A DNA stretch of 64,000 nt from Paralvinella palmiformis (lineage: Eukaryota; Annelida; Polychaeta; Terebellida; Alvinellidae): NCBI GenBank assembly GCA_025642065.1, contig JAODUP010001281.1, positions 1 to 64,000 of the forward strand. The letters run 5' to 3'. Shown here piece after piece: positions 356 to 51,304 of this stretch (positions are counted from its first letter, which is position 1; each line of letters starts with the position of its first letter). Below the pieces are notes generated by a model that did no database searches, was not told where the DNA came from, and was given only the letters and a program-made list of their open reading frames with translations. The position numbers and the translations under genes are program-made.

Positions 356-445
<90 letters not shown>

Positions 446-24258: not shown

Positions 24259-25347
24259 TCATAAGTAAGTATTATTGTTCTCAGCGATTTTGTTGACAAA
24301 GCTTCCATCAAAGTCATATCTAGGAAGGTATTCTGGAAACTTCTCGAGTTCTGAGTTCCATACAGACAATAGTAGATATGACTTGTCTTCAGTGATCCAT
24401 GACTGTCCATTATAATGTAATCCAGGTTCCATTCGGTTGATATCTAACAACATATTGTCTTGTCCTGTATAACCCTTTAGGTTTGAATAAACTGTAAACA
24501 GATTACTTTTATTGAAATAGTAAGTAGACCACATACTACACATAGAATCAGATGTACCATGACTTTCAAAACCAGTAAACCATTTATTTATCACCAAGTC
24601 AGGCATATAGGGTTTAAACGTATTGTCCTTGCGCACTTCATGGAACCAATCCTGAAAACCTCTCCATTCGTTTGGTTTCGGAGAATATCCCCAAGTTCCT
24701 ATCAAACGATAAAGAAAGACATTGTCCGTTTTGGGGATATTAGATACAGCTCGAAGATTAGGCTTAACATAATTAACATTCTCCATTTGTAATGTATATC
24801 CTCCCACATCAGAAACATTTCTGAATTTTGAATTCATTAGTTTTAGCCATTTGTAAGTGAGAGGTGAAATATCAATGTCATCTTCTAGAATTAATGCTAT
24901 CTCATGCGAATTCTCACGAGGTCTCCAAGTATCTATCCACTGACCAATTAGATAAGCATTCCGTTGTTGGATGTGTACACAAACCTGTCCCTGGGTCCAG
25001 TTTTTCTGAAACTCTCGAGAAACAGTTACTGTACTGTCATCTACCTCACCATCTTTTGATCTATCGATCCATATATCAACGGATACTCTATCTCCAAGAG
25101 TATATAACTTAGCGATGTGTGTAAGACATTTCCTTAATGATTCTGGACGATTGAATGTCAACACAATTATCCTAAAATCGAACTCGTCGGGATATTGACA
25201 TGGTACACCTGTCGTACACTGGACAAGACAAGGATCGTTTGTGATAAAAAACCACCTTTTCGTTGGCCATTCCACCTTAACAATCAGTATTACTATTATT
25301 ATCAATGTTAAACCTATTAGAAAAGCTTGCTTTCTGAACTCCTTCAT
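24259..25347 (-). CDS. Putative type II membrane glycosyltransferase, copy 1
   Basis: An intact single-exon gene of 362 codons. Residues 1-7 are a short basic cytoplasmic tail and about 10-24 a membrane anchor, so the catalytic part should face the Golgi lumen. FRIIVLTFNRPESLRKCL at 58-75 is the first strand of a GT-A fold. IWIDRSKDG follows at 92-100. LILEDDIDISP at 152-162 holds an EDD (155-157), the DxD-type metal and nucleotide-sugar site, as in GT2 and GT13 families. Cysteines 40, 44 and 50 could form lumenal disulfides. The sugar donor and acceptor are unknown; I recall similar unnamed proteins in invertebrates. By my count it differs from copy 2 at 58 of 362 positions, 13 of them in residues 250-278. 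Trp270 is Cys here and the N-glycosylation site at 108-110 is lost. The start is chosen because all copies begin MK(E/D)F or MEF. Confidence 0.85.
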   Translation of the reverse strand: MKEFRKQAFLIGLTLIIIVILIVKVEWPTKRWFFITNDPCLVQCTTGVPCQYPDEFDFRIIVLTFNRPESLRKCLTHIAKLYTLGDRVSVDIWIDRSKDGEVDDSTVTVSREFQKNWTQGQVCVHIQQRNAYLIGQWIDTWRPRENSHEIALILEDDIDISPLTYKWLKLMNSKFRNVSDVGGYTLQMENVNYVKPNLRAVSNIPKTDNVFLYRLIGTWGYSPKPNEWRGFQDWFHEVRKDNTFKPYMPDLVINKWFTGFESHGTSDSMCSMWSTYYFNKSNLFTVYSNLKGYTGQDNMLLDINRMEPGLHYNGQSWITEDKSYLLLSVWNSELEKFPEYLPRYDFDGSFVNKIAENNNTYL

Positions 25348-26562
25348 GGTTTAACACTATAACAAAACTCCTAGCAGAATAATACTGGATTATCTTCTGT
25401 CTATAATAAAAGTGACGACAGAGATGGCATTTGCAACATTTTAAATTGATGTATACCCGATGACAACGTTAAATTTACTGTCGTAAAAACCAAACCACAT
25501 TATAGTTAATTCAGAAATTTCGTTCGATATCTGTTGCACTTACTCAATTACTCTAACATTTCGACCACAATTGAAATGATCTAATGGATCTTCCACAAGA
25601 ATCAGCCATCACTATATGTTCAGATGTCATTCCCCTTTTATAAGTACTATATCTTGTAGTCCTTTTTATTATATTGTTATATATATTGAGGTAATACAAT
25701 CAATATACATATTTATACATTTAGGCATGATGTTGTATTGATCTATCTGACAATAGAATGTAACCCAAGAACTCAAATATCACTATGATCAATCCATATT
25801 AAGTTGATATATCGAGTCACAGATCAATATCATATTGAATAGGCGCATCCATAATATAATTGATAACAAAATTGATAATATTATGGAAACGAGAGAAAAC
25901 AGTAGACCACTTTAAAAGATTAACTAATTTTACAATTAAATTTATAATTCTTTATTAAAATTTTCAAATGTTTATAATGTTTATGAAAACTAAATATTTG
26001 AATTGCCGTCAATGAAATGCTAGTCTGTTTTTTTCTTCTTCTAATTTCTTCATTTCAATAATAATGCTCTTGTCTCGTTTCGTTACGATCATCAATGCTG
26101 ATATTATCTAATCATTTATGGGGGGGGGGGGGGTTCCAACTATTAGCTCTCGGACCAAGATTAGAGCTTACCTAGTTATGTAGAGTTAGCCCGTAATCCG
26201 CGAGTAATGTTCCACACAAAACCGATTGATAACAATGTTTTAATACAATTCGGAAAGGATTTATGATTTACTGGCTTCAGAAGAGTTAAATAAAATCCGA
26301 ACCAATCGTCCTCCCTTCCACTTGGTGTGGCACAATATCGGTTTAATTCAACACATGACGTATATCATTTGTTAACTATTAGCATATAGTCTTTGTTGTT
26401 GTTGTTTTGCTTTTTTTGGTTGGGGTATTTTGGTGGTTTTGTAAATTGCGTTAGTAAATTTCATAAAGGAATATAAATAATTTTCACCAAAGTTCCAGTA
26501 TTCACCTCTTCCACGACAAAATGGCAAAACTTCAAAATATTTCATCTCAGATGTGCATTTGA
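25348..26562 (-). repeat. Upstream flank of GT copy 1
   Basis: Matches 50-995 and the regions upstream of the other copies. It holds a run of 14 G at 26120-26133, not seen in the equivalent place elsewhere. No gene; no promoter element can be named with confidence. Confidence 0.6.
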
Positions 26563-26965
26563 CCCAAGTAACAACTCCATATGATTTAATTCTGATCTTT
26601 GGGATCTTCGGTGGTGATAGATTTGACTAGTTCACATAAATAAGCTGGAGCGTAGCTAAGCACCGCTTCAGTGAGCTCCGGTGGCCTAGTGGTTAAGCAC
26701 CCGGCACTTGGTGCCAACGGTCGCAGGTTCGAACCCAGCAAGAGGTCGAAACTTTTCCAGGGATTAATTTCTCGGCTCACTACATCGTGGGTGCTGACCA
26801 CGTTAAATGGCGCTGCCGTCTCCACTGAATTATTTAAAAATGAAGGGGGACGTTAAAAACCCCGTGAGGACGTAAAACACTCTGTATGTATTGCAGTTAG
26901 CTAACACATCTGTCTCGTATTCTTATGAGCAACGAGTTGCCATAATCTATCATCGATGCAATGAA
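26563..26965 (-). mobile_element. CR1/L2-like LINE C-terminal fragment split by a SINE
   Basis: The left part (26563-26660) and right part (26880-26965) align with uninterrupted copies at 36120-36450 and 39450-39720. On the minus strand those copies read YICEPVKLKQPDRQLRSDN and then KISKTRFKSYGDVTF, a LINE RT ending. The SINE at 26667-26880 lies between the parts here only. Confidence 0.6.
26667..26880 (+). mobile_element. tRNA-derived SINE, copy 1
   Basis: An RNA polymerase III A box TGGCCTAGTGG and B box GGTTCGAACCC lie 36 bases apart in a tRNA-like head (about 26676-26750). A tRNA-unrelated body follows (GATTAATTTCTCGGCTCAC... GACGTTAAAAACCCC). A second copy at 49750-50045 shares the body. 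It is not a tRNA gene because the acceptor and anticodon stems do not pair and the body is conserved. Confidence 0.8.
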
Positions 26966-28579
26966 GCTATGTGCCAAAAAAGCATTTTTAGGAAATTTGG
27001 TAGCTTAACGTGAGGTTTTTAAAAGGATATTTTTCGGGTAAAGTCTAACGCTTCTTGGATTTTCCAACACATTCTTTCCCACAGTTAACAAACATTTCCG
27101 AATGAAACCCAAATTATAATCTACATGATGCAATGAAGCGTCAACACTAGGAAAAAGCACAGATAAAAAGATTTAAAACCACGCTAAGTCAATTGAATAC
27201 TGCAATTCTTTTTCCCCAATTAAAAAAAATTTCCGAATAACCAAAAAAATCGATTTAGTCAAATTTTAAAACAGATATGATTTTGGGGGTTTTATTCAAT
27301 TTGGGTTCAAAATTTTTAAAAGATTTACAATTAGACAATTTGCGTTTATTGTTCAAATTAACCTAGACAAAATTTTTTTTTGTTTTTGGGGGCACTTCAG
27401 TTAAATGCAGGTTTAATGAAGCGCATTTTAGATAACTCTATATAATGAACCATAAGTTCAAAGGGTGCAATTTTATGTTTTATGTGTAGACAAAACAGCG
27501 TTTGTTATTTTCATATTGCAATATACTTACATGATTGTCACATGTAGTTAGCGTTTTGTTGTGTTATTGTCTCTAGAGAAGTATATATCTTCGAACACTA
27601 TTTTTCTATTCATCTTCATGTCGTCACATACTGTAAGTTCATTGTCCACTTATACTGAATGAAGATATGGCTCTAATATGAACGGATGATGAAATACAAA
27701 ATCCATTGAATAATTCAGATACATGTTTGACAACGTCTCGTTTTGTTGGCTACAGATCAATGATTATGTATAGATTGTTATCATTCCATACAAAGAAGCT
27801 TCACTGGTCTGGTGAAATCATAGTTGTTGTTATCATGTACTATAGTCTCTAGCGTGTTACAGTTTGTACTCTTACATCTTAGCTTAAATCCAGCTTCACA
27901 TAAAATGATTCAATTGACGCTCTACAGTGCGATGCAGAGTTAATTATTTATCGACATCACAGATGAAATTCTCCAGAAAGATATTGTTCTCGGGTGTATA
28001 TCCAGGTGTATTTTAATAATTGCCTTTAGAAAGAAAAAAAAGTGATCTCACCGACTTAAATAGTACAGATTGGAACCTGTAAACCTTGCATGTAGCATTT
28101 AGATCCATCGGGTTGGTTAGCTGCAGGAATTTCGTGCAATTCATGTCACTAGCTGTTAATTGTATTTAGATGAAAGCTTTACTCTATGTCGCTGATAAAT
28201 GTAATCTGATAAAACCTGAATTTCAGTATTATTTCTAAACGATTCGTAATCGTGGATAACCATCTACACTAGAAGTCATTCAAATTTGAGTTGATACTTT
28301 ATCCTCATTAAGATTAAATACAAACTGTGTTGGTGCTAAAGTTGAATCCTCATAAAATAAATGTCCTCATGTATTGTCATGGATTACATGGTGTTAGATA
28401 TAATTTTCTCATGTAGTATCATCAATAGTTGCTTGTTCGAGGAAAATATATTCCAGATAATCAGATACAGTGTTAACGTATGTCACAGGTATTTCAGATT
28501 ATGTTAATCAATGATCGAGTACTCTGATAGTTTTACATCCTCTTCTCTCTTGTAATACTGTTTTCTAGGAGTATAATAT
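26966..28579 (-). repeat. Duplicated upstream block of GT copy 1, distal part
   Basis: 27480-28560 aligns with 40180-41300 and with the inverse of 43250-44450. It is among the best conserved non-coding stretches in the cluster. Minus-strand pieces such as NETLSNMYLNYS and TPENNIFLENFICDVDK recur between copies. No intact frame; function unknown. Confidence 0.6.
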
Positions 28580-30630: not shown

Positions 30631-30635
30631 TTCGA

Positions 30636-30637
<2 letters not shown>

Positions 30638-30689: not shown

Positions 30690-30695
<6 letters not shown>

Positions 30696-30947: not shown

Positions 30948-32036
30948 TTATAAATAAGTAGCATTGTTGTCAGCGCTGCTGTTGACACAGCTTCCATCAA
31001 AGTCATGTCTAGGAAGATATTCCGGAAATTTCTCGAGTTCTGGGTTCCATTCAGACAATAGTAGATATGACTTGTCTTTAGTGATCCGTGAATGTCCATT
31101 ATAATGTAATCCAGGTTCTAATCTGTTCATATCTAACAACGTATTATTGTGTCCTGTATAATTCCTAAGATTTGAATAAACTGTATACAGATTACTTTTA
31201 TTATGATAGTAAATAGGCCACATTTCCCACATCGAATCTGCTCTACCTTGTCTTTCAAACCTAGTGAACCATCCATTTATCTTCAAACCTGGCATGTAGG
31301 GTTTAAATGTACTGTCTTTACGTATTTCATGGAACCAATCCTGAAAATCTCTCCATTCGTTTGGTTTAGGAGAATATCCCCAAGTTCCAAACAAACGATA
31401 AAGAAAGACATTGTCTGTTTTGGGGATATTAGATACAGGTCGAAGATTGGGCTTAACATAATTAACATTCTCCATTTGTAATGTATATCCTGCCACATCA
31501 GAAACATCTCTGAATTTTGAATTCATCAGTTTCAGCCATTTGTAGGTCATAGGTGAAATATCTATGTCATCTTCTAGAATTAATGCTATCTCATGCGAAT
31601 TCTCACGAGGTCTCCATGTATCTATCCATTGACCAATTATATAAGCATTCCGTTGTTGGATGTGTACACAAACCTGTCCCTGAGTCCAGTTTAACTGAAA
31701 CTCTCGAGAAATATTTAATGTACTTTCATCCACCTTACCATCTTTTGATCTATCGATCCAGATATCAATGGATACTTTATCTCCAAGAGTATATAACTTA
31801 GCGATGTGTGTAAGACATTTCCTTAATGATTCTGGACGATTGAATGTCAACACAATTATCCTAAAATCGAACTCATTGGGATATTGACATGGTTCACCTG
31901 TCGTACACTGGACAAGACAAGGATCGTTTGTGATAGAAAACCACCTTTTCGTTGGCCATTCCATCTTAGCAATCAGTATAACTATTGTTATCAATGTCAA
32001 ACCTATTATGGAAGCCTGCTTTCTGAAATCCTTCAT
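30948..32036 (-). CDS. Putative type II membrane glycosyltransferase, copy 2
   Basis: An intact 362-codon single-exon gene. Its layout is that of copy 1: basic tail, anchor at about 10-24, then FRIIVLTFNRPESL, IWIDRSKDG, and the EDD at 155-157. N-glycosylation sites are visible at Asn108 (NIS) and Asn116 (NWT). Residues 211-228 (FLYRLFGTWGYSPKPNEW) and 249-279 would lie in the acceptor side of a GT-A enzyme if the fold is right. It lies in the left arm of a large palindrome. It differs from copy 3 in the right arm at only about 22 positions and one codon. Frames on the opposite strand (31203-31801) are shadows. The start at 32034-32036 has A at -3. No intron is suggested. Confidence 0.87.
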   Translation of the reverse strand: MKDFRKQASIIGLTLITIVILIAKMEWPTKRWFSITNDPCLVQCTTGEPCQYPNEFDFRIIVLTFNRPESLRKCLTHIAKLYTLGDKVSIDIWIDRSKDGKVDESTLNISREFQLNWTQGQVCVHIQQRNAYIIGQWIDTWRPRENSHEIALILEDDIDISPMTYKWLKLMNSKFRDVSDVAGYTLQMENVNYVKPNLRPVSNIPKTDNVFLYRLFGTWGYSPKPNEWRDFQDWFHEIRKDSTFKPYMPGLKINGWFTRFERQGRADSMWEMWPIYYHNKSNLYTVYSNLRNYTGHNNTLLDMNRLEPGLHYNGHSRITKDKSYLLLSEWNPELEKFPEYLPRHDFDGSCVNSSADNNATYL

Positions 32037-32508
<472 letters not shown>

Positions 32509-32799
32509 CAATGGGTATTACGCTGATATAGGAAAATTGTTGAAAGTATATCTATTATAATCCTGACACGTCATTCACAGTATCGGAGATCTGCCTGAAA
32601 TCTGCTGTCCTCGACCATGGGTCAAATAGATCAAGCAGATAGGCGTTTTAATTATGATCCCACCACACCTAACTGCATATAGTTAGGTTGGAGTAAATCA
32701 TAGTATTTACTCAGGTTTGAGACAATATTTCGTTCTAGTCCAGTAATAATCAATTGTGCAGTATTGCTACTTCACTTCATTGCTTCCATATGGAGTTGG

Positions 32800-33225
32800 T
32801 GTCACTGTACCAGGTGGTCAACAGACTGTAATGTTTGTTAACACACCGAGGTCCTATAAAAGGCCTAACTTTTCACTCAGATTAGAGAACAACTTCGACG
32901 ACAGACTAGTCGAATGTTTATCGATATGGTTCATATAGGTAGGATTTGTTTAGTTATTCGAACCCAGAATAAAGCTGAGGTCAGCATCTGAGGTGTCGAA
33001 ATGTTTATTTTATATATATAGTTTTCTTTTGGACCACAGAAAGTTAATGTTGAATGTAAACTGTGGTGTCAAAGTAGTTATCTTATGTAAATAGTAAGTT
33101 GCCATTAAACCACACGCACGTATTGTTTGCTGCGAGCTGTGGTGTCAAATGGTATGTTTTACGTGCTTCCGCTTTTTGTACGTAGCTTGAATGCAGCAGC
33201 TTTCCTGTGGGCGTGACATATTTTA
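32800..33225 (+). repeat. LTR-like dispersed repeat, copy 1
   Basis: Holds a TATA-like CCTATAAAAGG at about 32854, a polyadenylation-type AATAAAGC at about 32970, and three spaced copies of the motif TGTGGTGTCAAA or close variants (about 32992, 33062 and 33140). The same order occurs inverted at 62915-63360. TATA then AATAAA suggests an LTR, but termini and target-site duplication are not found. It has no counterpart in the right palindrome arm that I can see. Confidence 0.5.
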
Positions 33226-33472
33226 ACGTCGTATTGATTCATCTAACAATAGAGTACGAACCAACAACACAAACATCACTGTAATCAAGCCATACTAAAT
33301 TCATATGTCGAATCACAGTTCAATATCATATTCAATCTGAGCATCAGTAATATAATTGATAACAAAGACAGACTTTCTAAGGTTTTATGGAATTTAAACA
33401 ATGAATTATTTGTGTATTAATATTATAGAAACGATAGATAACAGATATTCCACTTTAAAAGATTTAATACCC

Positions 33473-33476
<4 letters not shown>

Positions 33477-33512
<36 letters not shown>

Positions 33513-34035
33513 TATATTTAATAAAGGACCTTACTAGCAGGAGCCATTCAACGGCTTTGTACAAATAATATATAATATAATAATACCCCGTATTTCTAAT
33601 ATTTGCCGCAAACCGATTCTACAAAGTGGGGCTGCAACCAGAGTTGAGACACAGGCACCTACAATAGCATGTGACTGGATAACCTGAGATTGCATGATGA
33701 CTTTCTATTGAACACCAGTTCACACAGGTATTTAGGTGCCACATCATTAATAGATATATAAGTTATTAATATAATCTTGAAATGGATACGCTGTCTAACA
33801 GGCAGCCAATATAGTGTTTGAAGAATTGGGGTGATATGATCAAATTTTTTCGAGTATTTATCACAATGCGAGCTGCTCTATAGTGAATTCACTGAAGACG
33901 ATTGATGTTCTAATCAGATAAGCCACATAATAGGGAGTTACAATAGTCTATAAGAGATGTAACAAAGACATGGACTACAGTTACAAATGTTTCTTGTGTG
34001 AAGAATGCTTTTAAACAGTGGATGTTCTTAAGATG
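33477..34035 (-). mobile_element. CR1/L2-like LINE 3' end, copy 2
   Basis: (AAT)n at 33477-33510 is the reversed 3' tail, followed by the same end as at 21643-22304. It is more decayed, with deletions. The right palindrome arm retains only a short remnant of it near 46700-46815. Confidence 0.75.
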
Positions 34036-37000
34036 GTAGTAGGCAACTCAGCATACTGATGTGAGATATTCATACATGTTAATACCGTAGTCAAAATAAC
34101 TCATAGATTTTGTTTCTGACACATTAGGTCTACTCGAAGATGCACCCATCTGTAATGTTGGTGTTCTTGGGGATTTAACACAATGTGGCGATGCAAAATA
34201 TATACTATTTGTTTTATTACCATTTAGTTTTAGAAGGTTTTGAGTTATTCATGGCCAAATATCAGCAATACAATGTTCTAATTTCTTCAAGGAAGAGGAG
34301 AAATTTAAGCCTTTGTTGTTATAGTTTTGTTTTTGTTTCCGGGGATGGTTGTGACGTTAGTAAATTTCATGCAGGAAAATGAAGGGTTCTCATCAAAGTA
34401 CTAGTATTCTTGCATTCCACGACAAAATGCCAAAACTTAAAACTACAAGAACAAATATTTATTCAAAACAAATTAATTGAGGAGCATCTTGTGACAAGTA
34501 AAAGTGTAATAAAAGATCTCCATATAGTCCAGATAATGGCTGAGATACTAAAAAACATGGTGGATAATGGTTTTCTTAGTCTAAATATACAGATAATGTA
34601 GTAGCTAAATTTTACGGGACGTCTTTCTTATCGGATAGAACATCTTCATCGTTTGTCGAAGCAATCGGTGAACACAATAATTATTTGTTCATTAGATTAA
34701 AGAACATTCAAGTATATTAAGTTTATGGTTGTTTAGATTCCAATCATTACTGTAACACAATATGGCGTAAAGCAATCGTTTGATGATTTATTTTCTAAGG
34801 TGTTGTAATAAAAATAATTTAGTTTGTGCGAGTTCTAAATATGACATTGGCCGCTTCATTATTCTGTCTCTGAGACTGAAACAGAACAGTTCATCTGAAG
34901 TATCAAATTTACTTTTTTACTTCACTAGGTACTTCTATAATTGTTTAAATACCCTTCTTGCCTCAGGTTAAGCATAGTTATAATAAAAACTTCCGATATG
35001 GTGACAAGACATAACACATCATCATCATCATCATCATCATACGAGATGGTCATGATACATGTTTAAATAAAAGTCTGGAAATACTTTTATTTTTATGTTT
35101 TAGCCGAAACGCTTGAAGATTATAATAATTAGATATGCTCTGATTTATCAGAAACTTATTTATTTTTTAGATATATCTCACGCTTTCAGTCACCTTTCAT
35201 TTTTCCTCACAATTATTCTCATAGCTAACATCATATTTCAGTAGTTGACTATATATTTAAAATACTGGTTAAACAAAAGGCTTACATATCTTACACTTGC
35301 TAAACTTTCACTCAGATTAATTTGAATTTTATTATTACCTTCGGCGTACTTCAAACGAATATGAACTGGAGAAGGCGCCATTATTATCATTACCACACGT
35401 CATTGATCAATAAATAGTTAATATTACAGTCAAACACATTAAAGAAGCATAATACTGAAGTTGTCCATGTACTTACAAATAAGAATGTTGACCTATCACT
35501 TCATATTAGTTCCAATAAATGATTCATGTCTATTATTGAATAATAAATGGGCCAAAGCAAAGCTTATCATAACCAATATGTCATTTTTGATGTCAGCTAT
35601 CGAACACCAAGTCTCACCAAACTAAAACTGTATAAATCATTCTTTATACAGGATTTGTTGCATACAATTCATAAATATTTTCTGTTAACAGTGGACCTAA
35701 TTGTTAGGTTATTATTTAAATATATCACTGAAGATTCTGTTACCATATTAACCAAAATTTGCGCACTATCAGACGTCTTAGCATGAACCATGAAAAATTA
35801 TCAAGAAAAGAAATTATTAATGGTAAATTATCTAATAGAACGTAATTTTATTTCATTTTAATGTCAGTTACTAAACAATATCTGCCATTAGCATATACAT
35901 TTTATACTTCTGTATACGTTAGTATATAGAGACAATTTGTTTGCACAGACATATATATATATATATATTATTAAAAAATACAAGACTTCATAATAATCAA
36001 TATTATTAGTAGAAATCTAAATCATTATCATGTAGATAGATATTCAATTTGAATTTCAAAGGTTCTTTGGTCGGAACAGATCTTATAGGTTCTGGGAGGT
36101 GATTCCAGCATTTGATCCAACTACACTAAAAGTAACATCTCCATATGATTTAAATCTGGTCTTTGAGATTTTCGGTAGTGACAGATTATCTGACCTCAGT
36201 TGACGATCGGGCTGTTTCAATTTCACTGGTTCACATATATAAGGCAGGGCTTAGCCATGCACCAATTTATATTGAATCAGTATTATCTTGAATGCAATGG
36301 GTTGTTTCATGGTAATCAAATGAGATGTTTAAATACAGGCAATGCATGAACGCACTAGTGGGTATTTGTCACCAGACGGCAGTGCAGTTCTGTATGTGTG
36401 GCAGTTAGCTAACACATATGTCTGGTATTCCTATGAGCCATGAGTTGCCATAATACTCGCTGTTGCCATCTATACTCGACGCAATGGAGCTATGTACCAC
36501 AGTCATGAGGACATAGGTAGATAAATGAGGGTTAAAACATCAAATTCTTCTCTAAAGTCTAACGCTCTGAATCCAAAGCATTGTCATACATTCTATCCCA
36601 AATCAACAACTCATTTCCAGAATTAAACAAATATACTGCTCAACACTTGTTGAATAGCATAAATATAGATTTCAACAAGGTGGTCATTGGATATTGTAAT
36701 TCTAACCAGACTGAACAGATACATTAAAATTCCTATTATAATATCGATATAGCCAATAAAATGGACAGGTGATTTGCGGTGATTAATTGTTCAAATATTT
36801 GAAGCTTTACAATTAGACACCAGGTTGATTTTTCAAACGCGTCACATGTTTGGTAACTTCATTTGAATGCAGATCAGTTTAGATAACCATATATAATGAA
36901 CCGTAAGTTCAAAGGGGACAATTTGGATTTTTCTGTGTTGATAATACAACATTTGTTATTTCCATATTGCAATATATTTACATGATTGTCACATGTAGTT

Positions 37001-37800
37001 AGCGTTTTGTTGTGTTATCGTCTCTAGAAAAGTATATATCTTCGAACGCTATTTTTCTATTCATCTTCATGTCATCACATACTGTAAGTTCATTGTCCAC
37101 TTATACTGAATGAAGATATGGCTCTAATATGAACGGGTGATGAAATACCCAATCGATTAAATAATTCAGATACGTGTTTGACAACGTCTCGTTTTGTTGG
37201 CTACAGCTCATGTTAATCAATGATCGGCTACTCTGATAAAATATACCGTAGTTTATTGACAAAAGGTTTAATTGCTGTGTAATGTTTCATAAGATAATAA
37301 TAATAATAATAATAATGACCGTTATTTTACGTGGCTTAGATATGGCCTGTAATTTATTGCTTCAACACGGTGAATTTCGTATGGTGGCATGATCAAACAG
37401 CTATGCCAGGTATGCCTGGTAAGCGGCCGGGATGTCTGTCATTACAAAAAGTGACCAGCCCACCCGGTCATGTAGGTATACCTGGGATGACCTATGCTCA
37501 CAGTCAAACAATTAGAGACAGTCTGATCAGCTCTTCTAGTAATCGATCGAGAAACCAATCGTCAGACTAGCCTCAACCGGTTCGCTGGCATTTGATAAAA
37601 TTATAACAGATGCTAGCATGGTTTGTGTGCCAGAGATTAATTCACAGAATGAATCTAAGTATAAACTCCGGGAAGTCGGCTCATTTTACAGGCCATCAGT
37701 GACACAAAGTCAATCCGGTCTGCAGAGTAGAACAGCATATATACCCAGTTACAGTTCAGTTATCTATGGCTAAACATCGGCAATGAAATATTCTCAATTA
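34036..37800. repeat. Block A of the left-arm tandem duplication
   Basis: Matches block B (37980-41660) in direct orientation at several anchors. It contains a decayed LINE C-terminus at 36020-36460 (minus, CEPVKLKQPDRQLRSDN), a CAT repeat at 35019-35040, and short frames at 34090-34250 and 34410-34601 that recur elsewhere. No intact gene is seen. Confidence 0.6.
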
Positions 37801-37979
37801 TCTAAGGAAAAGGAAACATAATTCCTAGCTAAGATTCGGTGTTGAGTGGAAGATGTTTTCTTCAGCATATCAATCGTATTTAAAGCTAGATTGTTGCCCA
37901 ATGAAATCAAAGAACATCCACGTATACATTGTGAATACCGAATGGCATATAAATGTTATGCAATCACACACAAACTCAC

Positions 37980-40900
37980 GTAACGTCGTATTGATTTATT
38001 TAATCAAGCAATACTAAATTTATATGTCGAATCAAAGGTCAATATCATATTCAATCTGTGCATCAATAATATAATTGCTAACAAAGACAGACTTTCTAAT
38101 GTTTTATGGAATTAATACAGGGAATTATTTGTGTATTAATATTATGGAAACGATAGAAAAAAGATATTCCACTTTAAAAGATTTAATGGTTTCAGAAAAG
38201 GTGAATAAAACTCAGATCAATCTTATCCACGTCTACTTCGTGTGGTACAATATCTGTTTTAATTAAATACATGGTATATGCCTATTACTAACTAATACCA
38301 TATAATAATTATTATTATAATAATAATCATAATCTGAATCATACTAATAATCATAATAATAATGTATATTTAATAAAATGCCCTTACTAGCAGGAGCCAT
38401 TCAAAGGCGCTGTACAAATAATACGTAATATAATAATACCCAAAATAATATGTCTGTAAAATCCATGTAAGAGATTTAAAAGATAATTATTATTTATCTG
38501 TGAAAGCAATCTTGACCAGGTATTTTTATAGAACGGATTTAAAATTTTCAAGAGACGATACATTTCTAATATCTGCCCACAACCGATTCCACAAAGTGTG
38601 GCTGCAAAACTAATTTCACAATCACCATATGATTTGAGCCGTGACACTGGCACCTGCAATAGTATCTGAGTGGATGACCTAAGTTTTCAGGATGGCTTTC
38701 TAATGGACACTAGTTCACACAGGTATTCTGGTGCCATGTCATTAATAGATTTATAAGTTATTAATAAAATCTTAAAATGGACACGCTGTCTAAAAGGTAT
38801 CCAACGTAGTTTTTAAAGAATTCTGTTCTTTAGATGGTAGTAGACAGCTCGGCATACTGATGTGACATCTTAATACATCTTAAAACAGTGGTCAAAATAA
38901 CCCATAGATTTTTAACTGACCCATTAGGGCTAATTGAAGATGCGCACATATGTAATGTTGGTATCTTTTGGGATATAACACAATGTGGATATATAATATT
39001 TGTTTTATATTATCATTCATGGCCGATATCAACAATACAATGTTCTAAATTCTTCAAGGAAGAGGAGAAATTAGAACATTTGTGGTTATCGTTTACTTTT
39101 GTTTGTTTGGTTAGGTTATTTTCGAGGATGGTTTTGATGTTAGTAAATTTCATGCAGGGTTTTCAACAAAGTAAAAGTATTAATCTGTTCCACGACAAAA
39201 TGGTAAATATTTTAAATTTAAAATGTTGGATGTGACGCGTAGAAGCTAAAATGTTAAATCACATTTTATCAAACACTTTCCTCTAACAATGCTACCATAA
39301 TGTGTGTTTTTTAAAACGTATCTAATGTTTGTGATTTAAATATCTGCACAAGAACAAATATTTGTTCAAAACAAAGTAATTGAGGAGCATCTTGTGATAA
39401 GTAAAAGTGTAATAAAAGATCCCCATATAGTCCATATAATGGTTGAGATGCTAAACAATATCACGATCAGGCTATTTCAATTGTACTAATTCGAACATAT
39501 AAGGTTGTGATAAGCCATGCACCGCTTTGTATGTGATCAGTAGTATCTTGAATACAATGCGTTATTTCACTGGTAACCATTGGAGATATTTAGATAAAGG
39601 CTGTTTATGATCGTACTTGTAGGTATTTGTCACCAGACGTGCAGTACAGTTCTGTATGCATGGCAGTTAGTTAACACATCTGTCTGGTATTCTTATGAGC
39701 AATGAGTTGCCATAATCTATACTCGATGCAATGGAGCTATGTTCCACAGTCATAAGGAAATAGGTAGATAAATGAAATTTAAAATATCAAATTCTTCGCT
39801 AAAGTCTAACGCTCTGAATCCAACACATCGTCACATATTTTATCCCAAATCAACAACTCTTTTCCAGAATGAACCAAATATAAGGCTAACATTTGGAATA
39901 CGCACTCAACATAGATTTCAACCAGGTGGTCATTGGATACTGCAATTCTAACCAGACTGAACCGATATATTAAAATTCCTATTATAATATCGAAATAGCT
40001 AATAAAATGGACAGGTGATTTGTTCAAATATTTGAAGCTTTACAATTAGACACCGGCTTCTTTTTTCAAACGCGTCACATGTTTGGTAACTTCATTCGAA
40101 TGCAGATCTAACAAAGCACAGTTTAGATAACACTCTTTAATGAACCGTAAGTACAAAGGGGGAAATATGATGTTTTACGGTGTTGATAATACAGCATTTG
40201 ATATTTTCATATTGCAATATACTTACATGCTTGTCATAAGTTTTGTTGAGTTATCATCTCTAGAGAAGTATAAACCTTCGAACACTATTTTTCTTTTCAT
40301 CTCCTTGTCGGCACATACTGTAAGTTCACTGTCCACTTACACTGAATGAAGATATGGCTCTAATATGAACGGACGATGGTATACTAAATCAATTGAATAA
40401 TTCAGATACATGTTTGACAACGTCTCGTTTTGTTGGCTACAGATCAATGATTCTGTGTAGATTGTTATTATTCCATACAAAGAAGCTTCTCTGATCTGAT
40501 GAAAACATAGTTGTTGTCATCATGTACTATAGTCTCTAGCGTGTTACAGTTTGTACTCTTACATCTTAGCTTAAATTCAACTTCATATAAAATGATTCAA
40601 TTGATTATCAGCAGTAGGATACAAAGTTAATCAGAGATGGTATTCGCCAGAAAGATATTGTTCTCCAAATCTACGGTAATTTGACTCGGGTGTATATCCA
40701 GGTGCATTTTAATCATTGTGTTCAGCTTTAATAGTAATCTCACCGGCTCAGATAGTACATACACATTTGATTATGTAAATATTCCATGTACCATTTAAAT
40801 CCATCGGGTCTGGTAGCTGTAGGAATTTGGTACAATTCATGTCACTCGCTGTTAGTTGTATTTACATGAGTGTCTTACTCTATGTCGCTGATAAATGTAA

Positions 40901-41390
40901 TCTGATAAAACCTGAGTTTCAGCATTATTGCTATAAGATTCGTTATCGTGGATAATCATGTACACTATTAGTCATTCAAACTTTGGTTGATCCTTTATCC
41001 TCATTAACAATTAAATATAAACTGTTTTGGTGCTAAAGATGAATCCTCAAAAACTAAATGATATGGATTGAAATGTTCTCTTGAATTGTACTATCCTCAT
41101 TATTGTTATGGACTACATTGTATCAGATGTAATGTCCTCATGTATTGTCATGGACTATATGATGTCGGATATAATTTTCTCGTGTATTTTCATCAATAAT
41201 TGCTTGTTCGAGGGAAACATATTCCATATAATCAGATACAGTGTTAACGTATGTCACAGGTATTTCAGATTATATTAATCTATGATCGAGTACTCTGATA
41301 ACATATACGGTAGCTTATTGACAAAAGGTTAATTGCTGTATAATGCTTCATAACAGCATTATCAAAATGTGAAGTACTAGGTCAGGCAAG

Positions 41391-41426
<36 letters not shown>

Positions 41427-41660
41427 GACGTTATTTAACGTGGCTTAACTACCTCAAGTGAGAGAGATGCATATGGTCTGTAATTTATTGCTTCAACACG
41501 GGGACTAATTCTAAATAAATGTATAATTAACAATAGATGGCATAATAAATTGAAGAAAACTTTCCAACACGTTATATGCTTTTATGGCGTTTAGAACGAA
41601 GAAAGATATGTTGAGGTAGTACACCTTTCTGTATGAAAAGATGGTACTAATTTTCCTTGA
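37980..41660. repeat. Block B of the left-arm tandem duplication
   Basis: Starts with a second copy of the GT-upstream sequence seen at 33230-33470, but no GT gene precedes it. It includes a CR1/L2-like LINE end at 38300-38835 and a LINE C-terminus at 39450-39760. 40180-41300 is the conserved distal block. (AAT)n at 41392-41424. No intact gene. Confidence 0.6.
38300..38835 (-). mobile_element. CR1/L2-like LINE 3' end, copy 3
   Basis: Same 3' terminal sequence as 33477-34035, at the same place in block B as that copy is in block A. The insertion therefore predates the tandem duplication. The minus strand reads CTAPLNGSC near the tail and GDCEISFAATLCGIGCGQIL further in, a decayed form of the family's C-terminus. 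Confidence 0.7.
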
Positions 41661-42889: not shown

Positions 42890-43106
42890 AGTACCATCTT
42901 TTCATACAGAAAGGTGTACTCCTCAACATATCTTTCTTCGCTGTGTAGTAAACCCTATCAAAGCATCTAACGTGTTGGAAACTGTTTTTCAATCTATTGT
43001 TAATTATACATTTATTTAGAATTAGTCCCCGTGTTGAAGCAATAAATTACAAACACTATCCATCTCTCTCACTTGAGGTAGTTAAGCCACGTTAAATAAC
43101 GGCCAA

Positions 43107-43142
<36 letters not shown>

Positions 43143-43280
43143 CATTATTATCTTGCCTGACCTTATACTTGCCGTTATCATAATCCGGTTATGAAACATT
43201 TCACAGCAATTAATCTTTTTTCATCAAACTACGGTATACGTTATCAGAGTACTCGATCATTGATTAACATAATATGACAA

Positions 43281-43376
43281 TGTGACATACATTAAGACTG
43301 TATCTGTGACATACATTAAGACCTTATCTGTGACATACATTAAGACTGTATCTGTGACATACATTAAGACTGTATC
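43281..43376. repeat. Minisatellite, four 24-base units
   Basis: Unit TGTGACATACATTAAGACTG followed by TATC, repeated four times in exact register. Only the second unit differs, with two changes (CTT for TGT region). The paralogous positions at 28470-28490 and 41240-41265 hold a single related unit. Confidence 0.95.
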
Positions 43377-46300
43377 TGATTATCTGGAATATGTTTTCCT
43401 TGAACAAGCAACTATTGATGATCTGCATGAGAAAATCATATCCTACACCATCTAGTCCATGACAGTACATGAGGACATTACATCTGACAACATGTGGTCT
43501 AACGCAATTGAAGAGGACATTACAATCCACACTATTTAGTTTATGATGATTTAACTTTAGCATCAAAACAGTTTATATTTATTTGTTAATGAGGATAAAG
43601 GATCAACCCAAATTTGAATGACTTCTAGTGTAAATGGTTATGCCCGATAACGAATCTTATAGCAATAACACTGAAATTTAGGTTTCATCAGATTACATTT
43701 ATCAGCGACATAGAGTAAGACACTCATGTAAATACAACTAACAGCGAGTGACATGAATTGTACCAAATTCCTACAGCTACCAGACCCGATGGATTTAAAT
43801 GGTACATGGAATGTTTACATAATCAAATGTGTATGTACTATCTGAGCCGGTGAGATTACTATTAAAGCTGAACACAATGATTAAAATGCACCTGGATATA
43901 CACCCGAGTCAAATTACCGTAGATTTGGAGAACAATATATTTCTGGAGAATATCATCTCTGATATCGATAAAGAATTAACTTTGTATCCTACTGCTGATA
44001 ATCAATTGAATCATTTTATATGAAGCTGGATTTAAGCTAAGATGTAAGAGTACAAACTGTAACACGCTAGAGACTATAGTACATGATGACAACAACTATG
44101 TTTTCATCAGACAAGAGAATCTTCTTGGTATGGAATGATAACAATCTACACAGAATCATTGATCTGTAGCCAACAAAACGAGACGTTGTCAAACATGTAT
44201 CTGAACTATTCAAATGATTTAGTATACCATCGTCCGTTCATATTAGAGCCATATCTCCATTCAGTATAAGTGATCAGTATGTGCTGATCATGAAGATGAA
44301 AATAAAAAATAGTGTTCGAATGTATATACTTCTCTAGATACGATAACTCAACAAAACACTAACTGCCTGTGACAACTATATAAGTATTTTGCAATATGAG
44401 AATAACAAATGCTGTATTATCAACATCGAAAACATCAAATTTGCCTTTTGTACTTACCGTTCCTTATAGCGTTTTATCTAAACTGCGCTTCGTTAGATCT
44501 GCTTTAAGATGAAGTTAACAAAAATGTGACGCATTTGAAAAAAGAAGATTGAAAAATATAAAAAAAAACTGTAGTATCCAATGACCACCTGCTTAAAATC
44601 TATATTTATGCTATTCAACAAGTGTTGAGTGCGTATTGCAAATGTTAGCATTATATTTGGTTCATTCTGGAAATTAGATTTTGATTTGGGATAGAATGTG
44701 TGGTGGTGTGTTGGATTCAGAGCGTTATACATTAGCGACGAATTTGATGTTTTAAACTGTACTGCACACCTAGTACAATTATACACAGCCTGTATTTAAA
44801 CATCACCATTTGTTATTACAAAAACAGCCTATAAGATATATTCGGACCATGGAACCTTTATAATTCAAATTTAAGATATTTCTATATGATAATGGTTTAA
44901 ATGTCATCTACTAATAATATTGATTATTATGAATTCTTGTATTTTTCAATAATTTATAATATGAATTGTATGTAGAGATGTCTGTGTAAACATATAGTCT
45001 GTATATACTGTCGCATACAGAAGGTTATCCTGGTTAAACCAGATAAAATGTATATGCTAATGGCAGATATTTTAGTAACTGGCATTGAAGTGAAATACAA
45101 TGATGCTCTGAGAGATTAGATAAAACGTCTGAAACTCTACAATATTTAATTGGTGTGGTTACAAAATCCTCGGTGATATATTTAAATAATAATTTACTAA
45201 TTTATTCCACTATTAATAGGAAATTCTTATGAAATATATCACACATATCCTGTATAAAGAATGATTTACCCAGTTTTATTTTGGTGAGACTTAGTATTCG
45301 ATAGCCGACGTCAGAAATGACACATTGGTTCTTAGAAGCTTCGTTATTGCCCATTTATTATTCAATAATAGACACGCACTATATTTGTGTGGAAACCGTT
45401 GTGCTAAAAATAATTAAATTTAAGATAAAAGAGTAATTTCTGACATATTACAAATAATAATATGAACTCCAGGAGAAATAAAGATTTAACTGATAGATGT
45501 AGTTCTATTGTACAACAAATGTGGATATGGCTGTTTCCATACATAATCCATTTTACATTCCGACATATTGTTTGTGTGTTCCCAAAACCTTTGATTAAAT
45601 AAACCTTTGGTAATCTTTTGTCATTTGTTATAAAACAATCTATTTTTTAACTTCCCGAGAGATTTCTTTCTTTCTATTTTGGTACATCACCGATGATTTT
45701 GTAGAAACTCCGTGTATCCTTGCATCATTTATTGGAACTAATGAGCAGTGATAGGTCAGCATTCTTATTTGTAAGTACATGGACGACTTCAGTATTATAC
45801 TTCTTTAATGTGTTTGACTGTAATATTAACTATTTATTGATCAATGACGTGTGGTAATGATAATATTGATGCCTTCTCTAATTCATATTCGTTTGAAGTA
45901 CGCCGAAGGTAATAATTAAATTCAAAATAATCTGAGTTGAAGTTCAGTAAGTGTAAGATATGTAAGACTTTTGTTTAACCAGTATTTTAAATATATAGTC
46001 AACCACTGAAATATGATGTTAGCTATGAGAATAATTGTGAGGAAATATGACAGATGACTGAAACGTTTCTGATAAATCAGAGAATATCTAATTATTATAA
46101 TCTGCAAGAGTTTCGGATAAAACATAAAAATATAAGTGTTTCCAGGCTTTTATTTAAACATGTATCATGACCATCTCGTATGATGATGATGATGATGATG
46201 ATGATTAATGTTTTATGGCTTGTGACCATCTCGGAAGGTTTTATTATAACTATTCTTAACCTGGGGCAAGAAGGGTATTTAAACAAATATAGAAGTACCT

Positions 46301-46777
46301 AGTGAAGTAGAAAATTTTGATACATCAGATGAAGTGTTTTATTTCAATATTAGAGATAGAATAATGAAGCGACACAGTGTCATATTTAGAACCCCAATAA
46401 ACCCAAATTATCTTATTACAATACCGTTGCTTTACGCCATATCATATGTCACAGTAATGAAATATTGCTGCCTAAATGACTAATAACTTAATAAACTCGA
46501 ATGTTCTTTAATCTACTGAACTGATACTTACTGTGTTGACCGATTCCTTGGTCAAACGATGAAGATGTTCTATCAAATAAGAAAGACGAGGCATAAATTT
46601 AGCTACAACATTATCTGTATATTCAGTCTATAAAAACCATCATCCACCATGTTTTTAACATCTCAACCATTATCTGGACTATATGGGTTTTATTATGTTA
46701 TGTATTATTTGTACAGAACAGTTAAATGGCTCCTGCTAGTAATGGACTTTATTAAAAATACAATATTATATTATGAC

Positions 46778-46810
<33 letters not shown>

Positions 46811-47014
46811 CATCATTACAATTACATCAAAACACAAATAATTCATTGTTTAAATTCTATAAAACATTAGAAAGGTTGTCTTTGTTATCAATTATATTAT
46901 TGTTGCACAGATTGAATCAGATTCGACATATAAATTTAGTATGGCTTGATTACAGTGATATTTGTGTTGTTGGTTCGTACTCTATTGTTAGATGAATCAA
47001 TACGACGTTAAGCC

Positions 47015-47017
<3 letters not shown>

Positions 47018-47074
<57 letters not shown>
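47018..47074. repeat. (AT)n microsatellite upstream of GT copy 3
   Basis: AT dinucleotides, about 57 bases, roughly 180 bases before the start codon. The other copies have an AT tract upstream too, though further away. Confidence 0.95.
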
Positions 47075-47076
<2 letters not shown>

Positions 47077-47253
47077 GCGACAGATGTCGAACGAAGCTTC
47101 TGAATTAACAATCTATATAACACATATTTAACGATTGCCATCGACTATGCACTAATTAAGAATGTCGAAAATACCATATCTACCCACATTTGTATTAATG
47201 GTGAAAGAGAATACAGTATGATTCTGCTGGGAATTTTGTTGTAGTGTTACACC

Positions 47254-48339
47254 ATGGAGTTCAGAAAGCAGGCATCCATAAAATGTTTGACATTGATAAT
47301 AATAGTTACACTGATTGTTAAGATGGAATGGCCAACGAAAAGGTGGTTGTCTATCACGAACGATCCTTGTCTTGTCCATTGTACGACAGGTGAACCATGT
47401 CAATATCCGGACGAGTTCGATTTTAGGATAATTGTGTTGACATTCAATCGTCCAGAATCATTAAGGAAATGTCTTACACACATCGCTAAGTTATATACTC
47501 TTGGAGATAAAGTATCCATTGATATCTGGATCGATAGATCAAAAGATGGTAAGGTGGATGAAAGTACATTAAATATTTCTCGAGAGTTTCAGTTAAACTG
47601 GACCCAGGGACAGGTTTGTGTACACATCCAACAACGGAATGCTTATATAATTGGTCAATGGATAGATACATGGAGACCTCGTGAGAATTCGCATGAGATA
47701 GCATTAATTCTAGAAGATGACATTGATATTTCACCTCTGACATATAAATGGCTAAAACTGATGAATTCAAAATTCAGAGATGTTTCTGATGTGGCAGGAT
47801 ATACATTACAAATGGAGAATGTTAATTATGTTAAGCCTAATCTTCGAGCTGTATCTAATATCCCCAAAACGGACAATGTCTTTCTTTATCGTTTGTTTGG
47901 AACTTGGGGATATTCTCCTAAACCAAACGAATGGAGAGATTTTCAGGATTGGTTCCATGAAATACGTAAAGACAATAATTTTAAACCCTACATGCCAGGT
48001 TTGAGGATAAATGGATGGTTCACTAGATTTGAAAGACAAGGTAGAGCAGATTCGATGTGGGAAATGTGGCCTATTTACTATCATAATAAAAGTAATCTGT
48101 TTACAGTTTATTCAAACCTAAAGGGTTATACAGGACAAGACAATACGTTGTTAGATATGAACAGGTTAGAACCTGGATTACATTATAAGGCCCATTCACG
48201 GATCACTAAAGACAAGTCATATCTACTATTGTCTCAATGGAACCCAGAACTCGAGAAGTTTCCGGAATATCTTCCTAGACATGACTTTGATGGAAGCTGT
48301 GTCAACAGCAGCGCTGAGAACAATGCTACTTATTTATAA
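47254..48339 (+). CDS. Putative type II membrane glycosyltransferase, copy 3
   Basis: An intact 361-codon single-exon gene in the right palindrome arm. It has the family's motifs: FRIIVLTFNRPESLRKCL, IWIDRSKDG, LILEDDIDISP with the EDD, and FGTWGYSPKPNEW. It begins ACACCATGG, the best start context of the three. Compared with copy 2 it lacks codon 2 (MEF for MKDF), has Lys in the membrane segment (SIKCLTLIIIVTLIVK), and differs at about 22 positions in all. The Lys may weaken the anchor. Donor, acceptor and expression are unknown. Minus-strand frames at 47152-47403, 47486-47770 and 47806-48084 are shadows. Confidence 0.87.
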   Translation: MEFRKQASIKCLTLIIIVTLIVKMEWPTKRWLSITNDPCLVHCTTGEPCQYPDEFDFRIIVLTFNRPESLRKCLTHIAKLYTLGDKVSIDIWIDRSKDGKVDESTLNISREFQLNWTQGQVCVHIQQRNAYIIGQWIDTWRPRENSHEIALILEDDIDISPLTYKWLKLMNSKFRDVSDVAGYTLQMENVNYVKPNLRAVSNIPKTDNVFLYRLFGTWGYSPKPNEWRDFQDWFHEIRKDNNFKPYMPGLRINGWFTRFERQGRADSMWEMWPIYYHNKSNLFTVYSNLKGYTGQDNTLLDMNRLEPGLHYKAHSRITKDKSYLLLSQWNPELEKFPEYLPRHDFDGSCVNSSAENNATYL

Positions 48340-48473: not shown

Positions 48474-49420
48474 ACAGTCAGAATCCATTAATCCGACAAG
48501 GTTTGTCACATGATAATATGTCGGATAAACGCGAATGTCTAAATATCGAGTCCGTGACATAGCGGTAGTCTGTGTCACACATTTTTAGATCGTAAAGACA
48601 TGCTGTTATATGTAACAAAAATAACACACAACATCAATTGGAACCACAATGACACTTAAAATCTTGTGGTGTATTTATTTATTTTCAACAATTATGGCAA
48701 TAAATTACCAAAATGAAAATCCAACATGAAGGTCTGTTTAGCGGAATTAGTTTTGTGCAGGAGATATATCAACACGACGCTGTTTTCTTACTGGACTTGA
48801 CATATTTCTCTGTTATTATTTCGATAGCTGTAGAAATGAATCTGATAGCAAGTAACTCTTACCTCCGTATTTAACTAATATGCAATAACCGTGCGCAATG
48901 GTACTGAATGGCATTGAAGCCATTGATCGTTTTGATGTTTCTAATTACATACATTATAAAGAAATACTCGTGTCACTTTGTCCATCAGATTAACTCATGA
49001 TCTGCTCATTGGAAAGATCATACATTTGTGTTTGTAATTATCCATGAATTATTATGATTGGCTATGAGATAACCACAGGCAATGGAAGCATGGTGTGACG
49101 GCTTATATGGTCAAGGACGGTTGTAATTGGTTACGATATAGCAATTATCGTGTGTGGGTAGGTTAATTAACCATTACTGACAACATGTGGGTGTGTCTTG
49201 CATTACAGAACTAGCGGAAAATTTGACAAAATATTCGTGTTGTGAGATTATCGAGGTTTTTACATTGAAAAGTCATATTCTGTTGCCGAAATGAAGTGTC
49301 GGAGTCGGAACACGATTTTTCCGGATTAAAGAGTCATTTATAATGAGCTAAATCCGTTACAAAGAATTATGTGCCGGAAAGTGGAATTGTCGGATAAACA
49401 ATGTCTGGATTAATGGATTC

Positions 49421-49427
<7 letters not shown>
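48474..49427. mobile_element. pogo-like non-autonomous DNA transposon (MITE)
   Basis: The left end CAGTCAGAATCCATTAATCC and the reversed right end GACAGAATCCATTAATCC are inverted repeats next to TA on each side, as in pogo/Tigger elements. About 950 bases with no transposase. A deleted relative lies at 54362-54590. The inner part carries TGACATAGCGGTAGTCTGTG near the left end. Confidence 0.75.

Positions 49428-49460
<33 letters not shown>
49428..49460. repeat. (AT)n microsatellite
   Basis: Directly abuts the MITE right end. 49461-49740 beyond it shows nothing recognisable. Confidence 0.9.
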
Positions 49461-49464
<4 letters not shown>

Positions 49465-49749
49465 CATAATCTTTTTATATTAAATTCATTATATATAGGG
49501 ATAAAGAGAGTGAAGCCACAGTCGGCTGATATTCTCTCAACTTACTTACTACAGATAATATTCAAGATCATATAGTTTTATACAGGTGAAGAAGAAAAAA
49601 ACCACAGCAAACATAAAAACTTAATATTATATTAATACATGTAGATTAAAGTTTATTTTGACACATTCTGTTAAGAATGTTATAATATTTTAGTCAGTAT
49701 ATTATGTACGATAATTCATTGCAACAAACACTGCTTAATACGTGATTGA

Positions 49750-50045
49750 AAACCGGTACTTGGTGCCAAGGGTCACAGATTCGATCCCAGCAAGAGTTCG
49801 AAACTTTTCCAGAGATTAATTTCTCGGCTCACAACATCGTGGGTGGATGACCACGTTAAATGGCGCTGCCGTCTCCACTGAATTATTTAAAATAAAGGGG
49901 GACGTTAAAAACCCCCATAGGACGTAAAACACTCTGGCAGTGACCACCCTCCGGGTATTTAGGTTCTCAACCACTCCAACATAGAGGCTGTGCGGAATAA
50001 GCGACAGCCTGGGGATTCTCCCGGAACAACAAAACAAACAAACAA
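49750..50045 (+). mobile_element. tRNA-derived SINE, copy 2 with longer 3' part
   Basis: Shares the body with the SINE at 26667. It lacks the A box (5' truncated) but keeps a B-box-like AGATTCGATCCC. It continues through an extra 3' part (CACTCTGGCAGTGACC... GGGGATTCTCCCGGAAC) and ends in an A/C-rich CAAAACAAACAAACAAC tail. Confidence 0.75.
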
Positions 50046-50319
50046 CATACCTGCATTTATGCTTTTGCAAACGAATCTTGCTTACTTGTAATTAAATTTG
50101 CCTATTGATATAGGTTTTGAAAAAGATGCATTTCCTTTATTTAATATTCAGCTGTATTCATATTATATATGAACTGTATTATGTACAATGTACTTTATTT
50201 TGACACTTTGATATGTTATCATGATCTAACACGGATACAATGACATGATTGATGAATTACTATTTCATTGTTTTAATAAAAGCGGTTGTAATTACTATTA
50301 ACCATTCCACTTTTCAAAT
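50046..50319. other. Non-coding, no feature recognised
   Basis: AT-rich; probably partly the 5' region of the LINE that follows. Confidence 0.3.
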
Positions 50320-51016
50320 TTGATTGACATTATGCACAGTTCAATTTCATATTTCCATCTTAATTGTAGAGGCGTATCATCAAACTGGGAGTCCTTCCGA
50401 AATTTGCTTTTTGAATTTCAAATATTTAACCTCTCTTTTGATTTTATTGGGGTGAGTGAGGTTTACCGTTGTGAAAATGATCAACGCCTGGTGCTTCCAG
50501 AAGACCATAGCCTCATAACGCGTTGCCGTGAAACTGGATCGAAAGGTGGTGTGGGTCTCTTTGTGAAAGATGATAAAAATGTCAAAATACGTGATGATTT
50601 AGGCGTTTTTATTCCCCATGTATTTGAATCTTTATTTATTGAAATTGTTTCATCGTCCAAATCATCAATTGTTGGAGTAATTTACAGACCAAATACTGCA
50701 CCTAAAACAGATGTCGATGTATTCTCATCCACACTGCAAGATGTAATGGATATTATGAATAACGAGCATAAATGCGGTGTTATTATGGGGGATATGAATG
50801 TTGATTTATTGAAATTTGGATCTCATCCTAAAAGAGACGAATATCTTGAGAATATTGTTTTTTTCGCATGCTTTCTTACCGGTAATCACAAATCCCACCA
50901 GGGTGACACCATCATCAGCCACTCTTATTTATCATATTTACATCAATAATATATCCAGTTCTACTGATGCTGGCGTTATCGTCACTGATGTGGCTGATCA
51001 TTCGTTTGGTTTCGAA
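50320..51016 (+). pseudogene. LINE endonuclease domain, well preserved, truncated
   Basis: A 209-codon frame covers most of an EEP endonuclease: SYFHLNCRGVSSNWESF (metal-binding Asn), FDFIGVSEVYR (catalytic Glu), GSKGGVGLFVKDD, VGVIYRPNTAPKTD, and GVIMGDMNVDLLKF (GDMN). A frameshift near 50850 moves the end to another frame, where VIVTDVADH gives the DH motif (50960-51000). It is then joined at about 51016 to a GT gene fragment. The RT is missing. It is the least decayed LINE coding stretch in the window. Confidence 0.85.
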
Positions 51017-51304
51017 TCTATTGATCCAGATATCAACGGATACTCTATCTCCAAGAGTATGTAACTTAGCGATGTGTGTAAGACATTTCCTTAATGATTC
51101 TGGACGATTGAATGTCAACACAATTATCCTAAAATCGAACTCGTCCGGATATTGACATGGTTCACCTGTCGTACACTGGACAAGACAAGGATCGTTTGTG
51201 ATAGAAAACCACCTTTTCGTTGGCCATTCTACCTTAACAATCAGTATTACTATTATTATCAATGTTAAACCTATTAGAAAAGCTTGCTTTCTGAACTCCT
51301 TGAT
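51017..51304 (-). pseudogene. Glycosyltransferase-like pseudogene, 5' fragment
   Basis: About 95 codons match the start of copy 1 (AFLIGLTLIIIVILIVKVEW, then the LVQCTTGEPCQYPDEF region, to VSVDIWI). The start codon is changed: CAT in the paralogues is GAT here (51302-51304), so ATG became ATC. After IWI the frame passes into the LINE. It cannot make an enzyme. Confidence 0.85.

Follow-up and report, generated by a model that had tools for sequence, protein, structure and literature searches.

A cluster of duplicated glycosyltransferase-like genes in Paralvinella palmiformis

Gene copies in the window

The stretch of animal DNA analyzed here, hereafter the window (64,000 nucleotides from Paralvinella palmiformis with a GC content of 34%), holds several copies of one glycosyltransferase-like gene. 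Three of them are intact open reading frames (ORFs): copy B (24259–25347, minus strand) and copy C (30948–32036, minus strand) of 362 codons each, and copy D (47254–48339, plus strand) of 361 codons, which lies in opposite orientation to C. About 1e-8 ORFs of such length are expected by chance at the base composition of the window, and the coding parts of C and D are 96% identical. Copy A (1–49, minus strand) comprises the first 16 codons of a gene that is cut by the window edge (MKDFRKQASIIFLTLI). It was recognized by tblastn (codons 1–16 at 49–2; E values of 0.14, 0.002, and 0.65 with B, C, and D, respectively), by an agreeing DNA match, and by the homology of its 5′ flank to those of B, C, and D. 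Copy E (about 51016–51304, minus strand) is truncated and retains codons 1–96 only, which tblastn with B, C, and D places at 51304–51017; the alignment with B extends to 50960 at lower identity. Beyond copies A and E, tblastn with the three intact proteins returned one further row (a 26-residue match, E 0.47). The original prediction of three intact copies, one edge-cut copy, and one broken copy of a single family is thus borne out by the ORFs and tblastn, although the coordinates it gave (24259–51304) cover copies B–E and leave out copy A.

The same prediction described the genes as single-exon, which holds for their coding part alone. An AG dinucleotide ends 9 nucleotides upstream of the ATG in B, C, and D, so that these genes may have an intron in the 5′ untranslated region (UTR). 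The database protein P0002 (338 amino acids), whose record is marked as belonging to the window, corresponds to copy D started at Met24 and lacks the membrane anchor, probably due to a start-site error.

Collinear flanks and the mode of duplication

The 5′ flanks of copies A–D contain collinear blocks that reach 3–7 kb from the ATG. Seven blocks in the flank of C (32037–37303, minus strand) follow the order of the flank of D (43175–47253, plus strand), forming an inverted duplication with 2.8 kb in common (seven of 19 rows) that extends to 5.3 kb in C and 4.1 kb in D. The flank of A (50–7004, minus strand) has five blocks in the order found in D (1.57 kb, five of five rows), reaching 7.0 kb in A and 2.3 kb in D, and includes about 5 kb of extra sequence with pieces resembling long interspersed nuclear elements (LINEs). 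Four ordered blocks connect the flank of B (25348–28529, minus strand) to that of D (1.65 kb, four of seven rows) and likewise to that of C (1.46 kb, four of eight rows), whereas A shares four with C (1.26 kb, four of five rows) and two with B (0.48 kb, two of five rows). These totals count plus-strand blocks in conserved order, measured outward from each ATG; minus-strand repeats, matches to the unit F described below, and the mutual overlap of the two 9-kb stretches compared for C and D were excluded. The shared flanks of the original prediction are therefore present in A–D, whereas E has little in common with the others, namely about 65 nucleotides adjoining the ATG, a 144-nucleotide block shared with D, and nothing more. 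Together with its 5′ neighbor, copy E is 96% identical to B across 338 nucleotides.

In addition to copies A–E, there is a sixth unit (F, 37947–41300, minus strand) that duplicates the flank only and resembles the 5′ flank of D. No gene copy was found beside it by tblastn of the region 36.0–38.3 kb (best E 1.7). With gaps left aside, F has a 1.2-kb block whose identity to the D flank is 92% (88% with gaps counted), compared with 90% (84%) for one block shared by C and D and 87% (79%) for one shared by B and D, where the blocks compared do not all come from the same part of the flank. Unit F and the D flank also build an inverted repeat (40057–41648 and 42890–44547) with arms of about 1.6 kb that are 83–88% identical. 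Microsatellites (an AT tract at 359–460, an AG tract at 32357–32505, and a CA tract at 47018–47074) lie roughly 180–470 nucleotides upstream of the ATG of A, C, and D.

Control stretches elsewhere in the window also align with the flanks. At 13–22 kb, the aligned bases amount to 1318 for A, 630 for B, 563 for C, 479 for D, and 0 for E, and at 16–22.5 kb to 900, 0, 974, 579, and 0, respectively. The stretch at 3–12 kb (821 for B, 597 for C, 1091 for D, and 151 for E) holds part of the A flank, and its A row is self-overlap; at 53.5–62.5 kb there are 0 aligned bases for A–D, and the E row is mostly self-overlap. We read the flank matches in these controls, which are not clean, as dispersed repeats. 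What argues for duplication is the shared order of the blocks beside each gene and not the aligned total.

The missing coding introns could also be accounted for by repeated retroposition of a spliced messenger RNA, and LINE-like fragments do occur in the window. Within the flank of A lie an RNase H domain (1917–2321, minus strand, above cut-off) and a reverse transcriptase fragment (5205–5474, plus strand, just below cut-off), and a LINE endonuclease-like fragment (50302–51015, plus strand; Exo_endo_phos_2, E 0.01, below cut-off) abuts the inner end of copy E. The 5′ flanks of A–D, however, match in order for kilobases, which is more than an mRNA carries, and the 3′ sides lack a poly(A) tract: within 600 nucleotides of the stop codons of B, C, and D no A-run exceeds 7, the longest being in C. 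Repeated retroposition is therefore rejected as extremely improbable. Because of these collinear 5′ flanks and the short A-runs, segmental duplication is supported, as had been predicted; we conclude that it was tandem and inverted, with later loss of some copies. The endonuclease-like frame at copy E reads in the direction opposite to E and is cut there on its 3′ side, which suggests a joint left by a deletion rather than a simple insertion.

Predicted protein and its family

The predicted structure of the protein has a GT-A fold (predicted local distance difference test score of 91.4). The top fold matches are GnT-I, POMGnT1, and MGAT2, followed by COLGALT1/LH3 and GT2-like enzymes; we take GnT-I and POMGnT1 to belong to glycosyltransferase family GT13, MGAT2 to GT16, and all of the top matches to have the GT-A fold. 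A placement outside the GT-A folds, which the original prediction had named as grounds for its refutation, was hence not found. Sequence identity to these enzymes is low (11–13% for GnT-I and POMGnT1, 13% for MGAT2), and no PDB entry was matched by sequence at an E value below 0.2. At E 10, neither PF03071 (GT13) nor PF05060 (GT16) matches B, C, or D, and each profile matches one of 69 aligned relatives (E 0.0091 and 0.015, respectively). EXTL2, a GT64 fold, ranks 29th among the fold matches; UniProt gives GT64 as a domain name for some relatives, and in B, C, and D the Pfam GT64 profile is unmatched at E 10.

A basic tail (MKEFRKQ or similar) precedes a single hydrophobic anchor with a mean hydropathy of 2.2–3.1 over 17 residues, modeled as a helix at residues 2–24, in agreement with the anchor noted originally. 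Past residue 40, no stretch of 17 residues has a mean hydropathy above 0.75. The protein is accordingly predicted to be a type II membrane protein with a single N-terminal anchor, a layout that GnT-I shares. Its EDD motif (residues 155–157) is an acidic DxD-like motif with putative metal binding, which aligns with the EDD of GnT-I in a profile alignment. The attention drawn to this motif from the start proved justified, as E155 is found in all 69 aligned relatives and D156 and D157 each in 68.

Alternatively, the protein could belong to the polymer-forming or lipid-linked GT2 type known from bacteria and not work in the manner of GT13/GT16 enzymes. The GT2 profile PF00535 is weakly matched by 15 of the 69 family members at E ≤1 (best 0.0013), and a GT2 signal is present in the two remotest relatives detected, P0179 and P0180 (E 3.8e-20 and 1.3e-19 against the A2 profile); with 26.2 bits, P0179 exceeds the cut-off of 23.3, whereas P0180 stays below it with 19.6 bits. 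In the window, the resemblance is weak and confined to residues 60–130 of copy B (13.2 bits), whereas C and D have no match. Moreover, GT13/GT16 folds score about 3 Z units better than GT2 folds and over more residues, and there is a single N-terminal anchor, with no later stretch above the hydropathy limit given above. We consider a GT2-type enzyme rather unlikely and retain the GT13/GT16-like fold as the better description. Of the checks proposed originally, structure prediction thus gave a GT-A fold, whereas the profile search left the GT13 model unmatched by B, C, and D and the GT2 model below its cut-off.

At least 180 protein identifiers are listed as relatives. Most of them carry no species name, and those that do come from annelids (Paralvinella, Lamellibrachia, Capitella, Helobdella, and Owenia) and molluscs (Sinanodonta, Potamilus, Mytilus, and Octopus). 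The closest database protein, P0001 (LSH36_152g04054, P. palmiformis), is 93% identical to copy B. Seven family proteins are named for P. palmiformis and, judged by their locus tags, are spread over six contigs, with one 80-kb contig carrying two of them. A tree of 59 rows unites B, C, D, P0001, and P0003 in one clade (support 100/98). Six changes are required on this tree to account for the ten rows labeled P. palmiformis, a label that the three window rows bear by assumption, so the family was already multiple beforehand. Single-frame relatives of 330–390 residues on contigs of 0.3–2.9 Mb (e.g., P0038, P0107, P0111, and P0112) suggest, as read from protein records and not from DNA, that coding introns have long been absent. 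In P0121 and P0122, the present domain is fused to a GT77 domain (PF03407). P0018 (LSH36_1267g00028) is family-like for about two-thirds of its length and continues with unrelated coil-like sequence; it is perhaps a fused or wrong gene model.

No prokaryotic or viral relatives were confirmed in viral_contigs (nor, with A1 and P0180, in genome_contigs), a weak negative given that these searches depend on short conserved patterns. Among viral models, 114 were matched by fold at E ≤0.001, of which the best, the unnamed A0A386K979 (282 residues, E 3.6e-12), outscores every solved structure for the fold of copy B in Foldseek.

Divergence of the copies and proposed function

By the NG86 method, nonsynonymous (dN) and synonymous (dS) divergence amount to 0.030 and 0.090 for C–D, 0.085 and 0.195 for B–C, and 0.080 and 0.171 for B–D. 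Synonymous change thus exceeds nonsynonymous change in all three pairs. The coding alignments of C–D and B–C are ungapped, with the exception of one codon beside the start of D, whereas gaps open 9, 10, and 9 times in three flank blocks of 0.95–1.2 kb. The coding parts of B, C, and D are under purifying selection. With a dS of 0.09–0.19, the cluster is only fairly young, and the earlier description of it as young applies in a relative sense.

The low coding divergence might have been caused by gene conversion, but dS is close to the divergence of the 3′ flanks (0.09 vs 10% for C–D and 0.19 vs 21% for B–C), so that conversion need not be invoked for the genes as a whole. The 5′ flank adjoining the ATG is more diverged, at 17% between C and D over 190 nucleotides, or 29% in an alignment that includes a microsatellite. 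Between B and C, dS rises to 0.47 in codons 242–301, compared with 0.08–0.20 in the other five windows of codons, and this segment may hold a conversion tract.

The copies could also be one kind of enzyme differing in the choice of acceptor or donor, with the B lineage (B and P0001) changed at residues 225–280, which would lie near the substrate site. Covering 56 of the 337 aligned sites, this segment contains seven of the 14 replacements unique to B and P0001 (p 0.003 by Fisher's test) and none of the four unique to C and D. The segment was picked after looking, however, which makes this p too small, and the raised dS is equally well accounted for if a diverged copy donated a conversion tract or if constraint on B was relaxed. 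We hold this explanation to be doubtful.

Further traces of mobile elements lie away from the gene copies. Signals of a zinc knuckle and an aspartyl protease of a long terminal repeat retroelement (14668–15156, minus strand) are below their cut-offs, and a Tc5-type transposase DNA-binding domain (59420–59728, minus strand; PF03221, E 1.3e-7) is above cut-off. Two tandem arrays of three 15-bp copies each (53866–53910 and 56022–56066), 2.1 kb apart, have units that are mutual reverse complements in 14 of 15 positions and are possibly the ends of a mobile element.

Taken as a whole, the locus probably represents, and we say so with good confidence, a glycosyltransferase family that expanded in this lineage by segmental duplication, each gene being copied together with several kb of its 5′ flank. 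With less assurance, although still on balance, the model points to an inverting, metal-dependent enzyme that would use uridine diphosphate (UDP) sugars; N-acetylglucosamine as the transferred sugar is a tentative suggestion. The protein would be a resident of the secretory pathway whose catalytic part faces the lumen, and the UDP-sugar would be bound via a metal ion at E155-D156-D157. D233 (in FQDWF) could then act as the base for transfer with inversion, as in GnT-I and POMGnT1; it lies opposite the second Asp of the GnT-I motif WDDW in a low-confidence global alignment, and we take the catalytic Asp of GnT-I to be D291. The most likely acceptors would be secreted glycoproteins or glycans of the mucus or tube, and the original caution about naming a substrate is upheld.

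Several observations weigh against this reading. For the same GT13/GT16 chains, Foldseek reports low TM-scores (0.37–0.43 by query length, with root-mean-square deviations of 7–12), and the profile alignment to GnT-I is weak (a local probability of 16% over 20 columns and a global one of 49% at low confidence), so that the likeness to GnT-I rests on the fold. No Pfam or NCBIfam model matches the window proteins above cut-off. A fold reveals neither donor nor acceptor, GT-A enzymes include retaining ones, and the function as an enzyme is read from sequence and predicted fold, with expression and activity putative. Furthermore, copy E is broken, unit F has no gene, and residue 270 of copy B is a Cys where 64 of the 69 aligned relatives have a Trp. 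These last three points would also suit a decaying family whose copies are intact merely through recency and have little function left, as would the stop-free state of C and D alone, which arises by chance in 9.7% of neutral trials. The purifying signal in every pair and the nearly gap-free coding alignments speak against decay, which we regard as quite improbable, and we keep to an expanded family of putatively active enzymes.

PTHR47032 may be GT77-like, and PTHR33604, whose plant members are annotated as GT2-like, is our guess for a family that may hold the present one. In the genome paper on the alvinellid worm Alvinella pompejana, families over-represented relative to siboglinids include PTHR47032:SF1, named UDP-xylose:fucose xylosyltransferase (31 genes), and several carbohydrate sulphotransferase families (PMC12403961). 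Table 2 of that paper also lists PTHR33604:SF3 as likewise expanded (24 genes), a row that its accompanying section does not discuss (PMC12403961). That paper reports that the matrix of Alvinella tubes is glycoprotein and that the secretions abound in sulphated glycosaminoglycans, which it links to tube formation; its authors call the sulphated carbohydrate chemistry of Alvinella unexplored (PMC12403961). The main text of a Paralvinella hessleri paper contains no word starting with "glycosyl" (PMC12380324). A literature search on PTHR33604 or PTHR47032 turned up PMC12403961 alone, and no other paper on the present family was seen by title among the matches listed, so an earlier description is possible.

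In summary, the observation is sound, the mode of duplication is ordinary, and the cluster is a reasonable lead on a family that has no curated Pfam or NCBIfam model. We tentatively propose that this family expanded separately in several annelid lines and acts in sequence with GT77 enzymes, and that alvinellids may use many near-copies with changed substrate segments to make tube or mucus glycans specific to their clade. The many near-copies together with the natural GT77 fusion offer a concrete enzyme pair to test, and the cluster shows how the family grows, namely by duplicating entire segments in tandem and in inverted orientation, with some copies truncated or lost.
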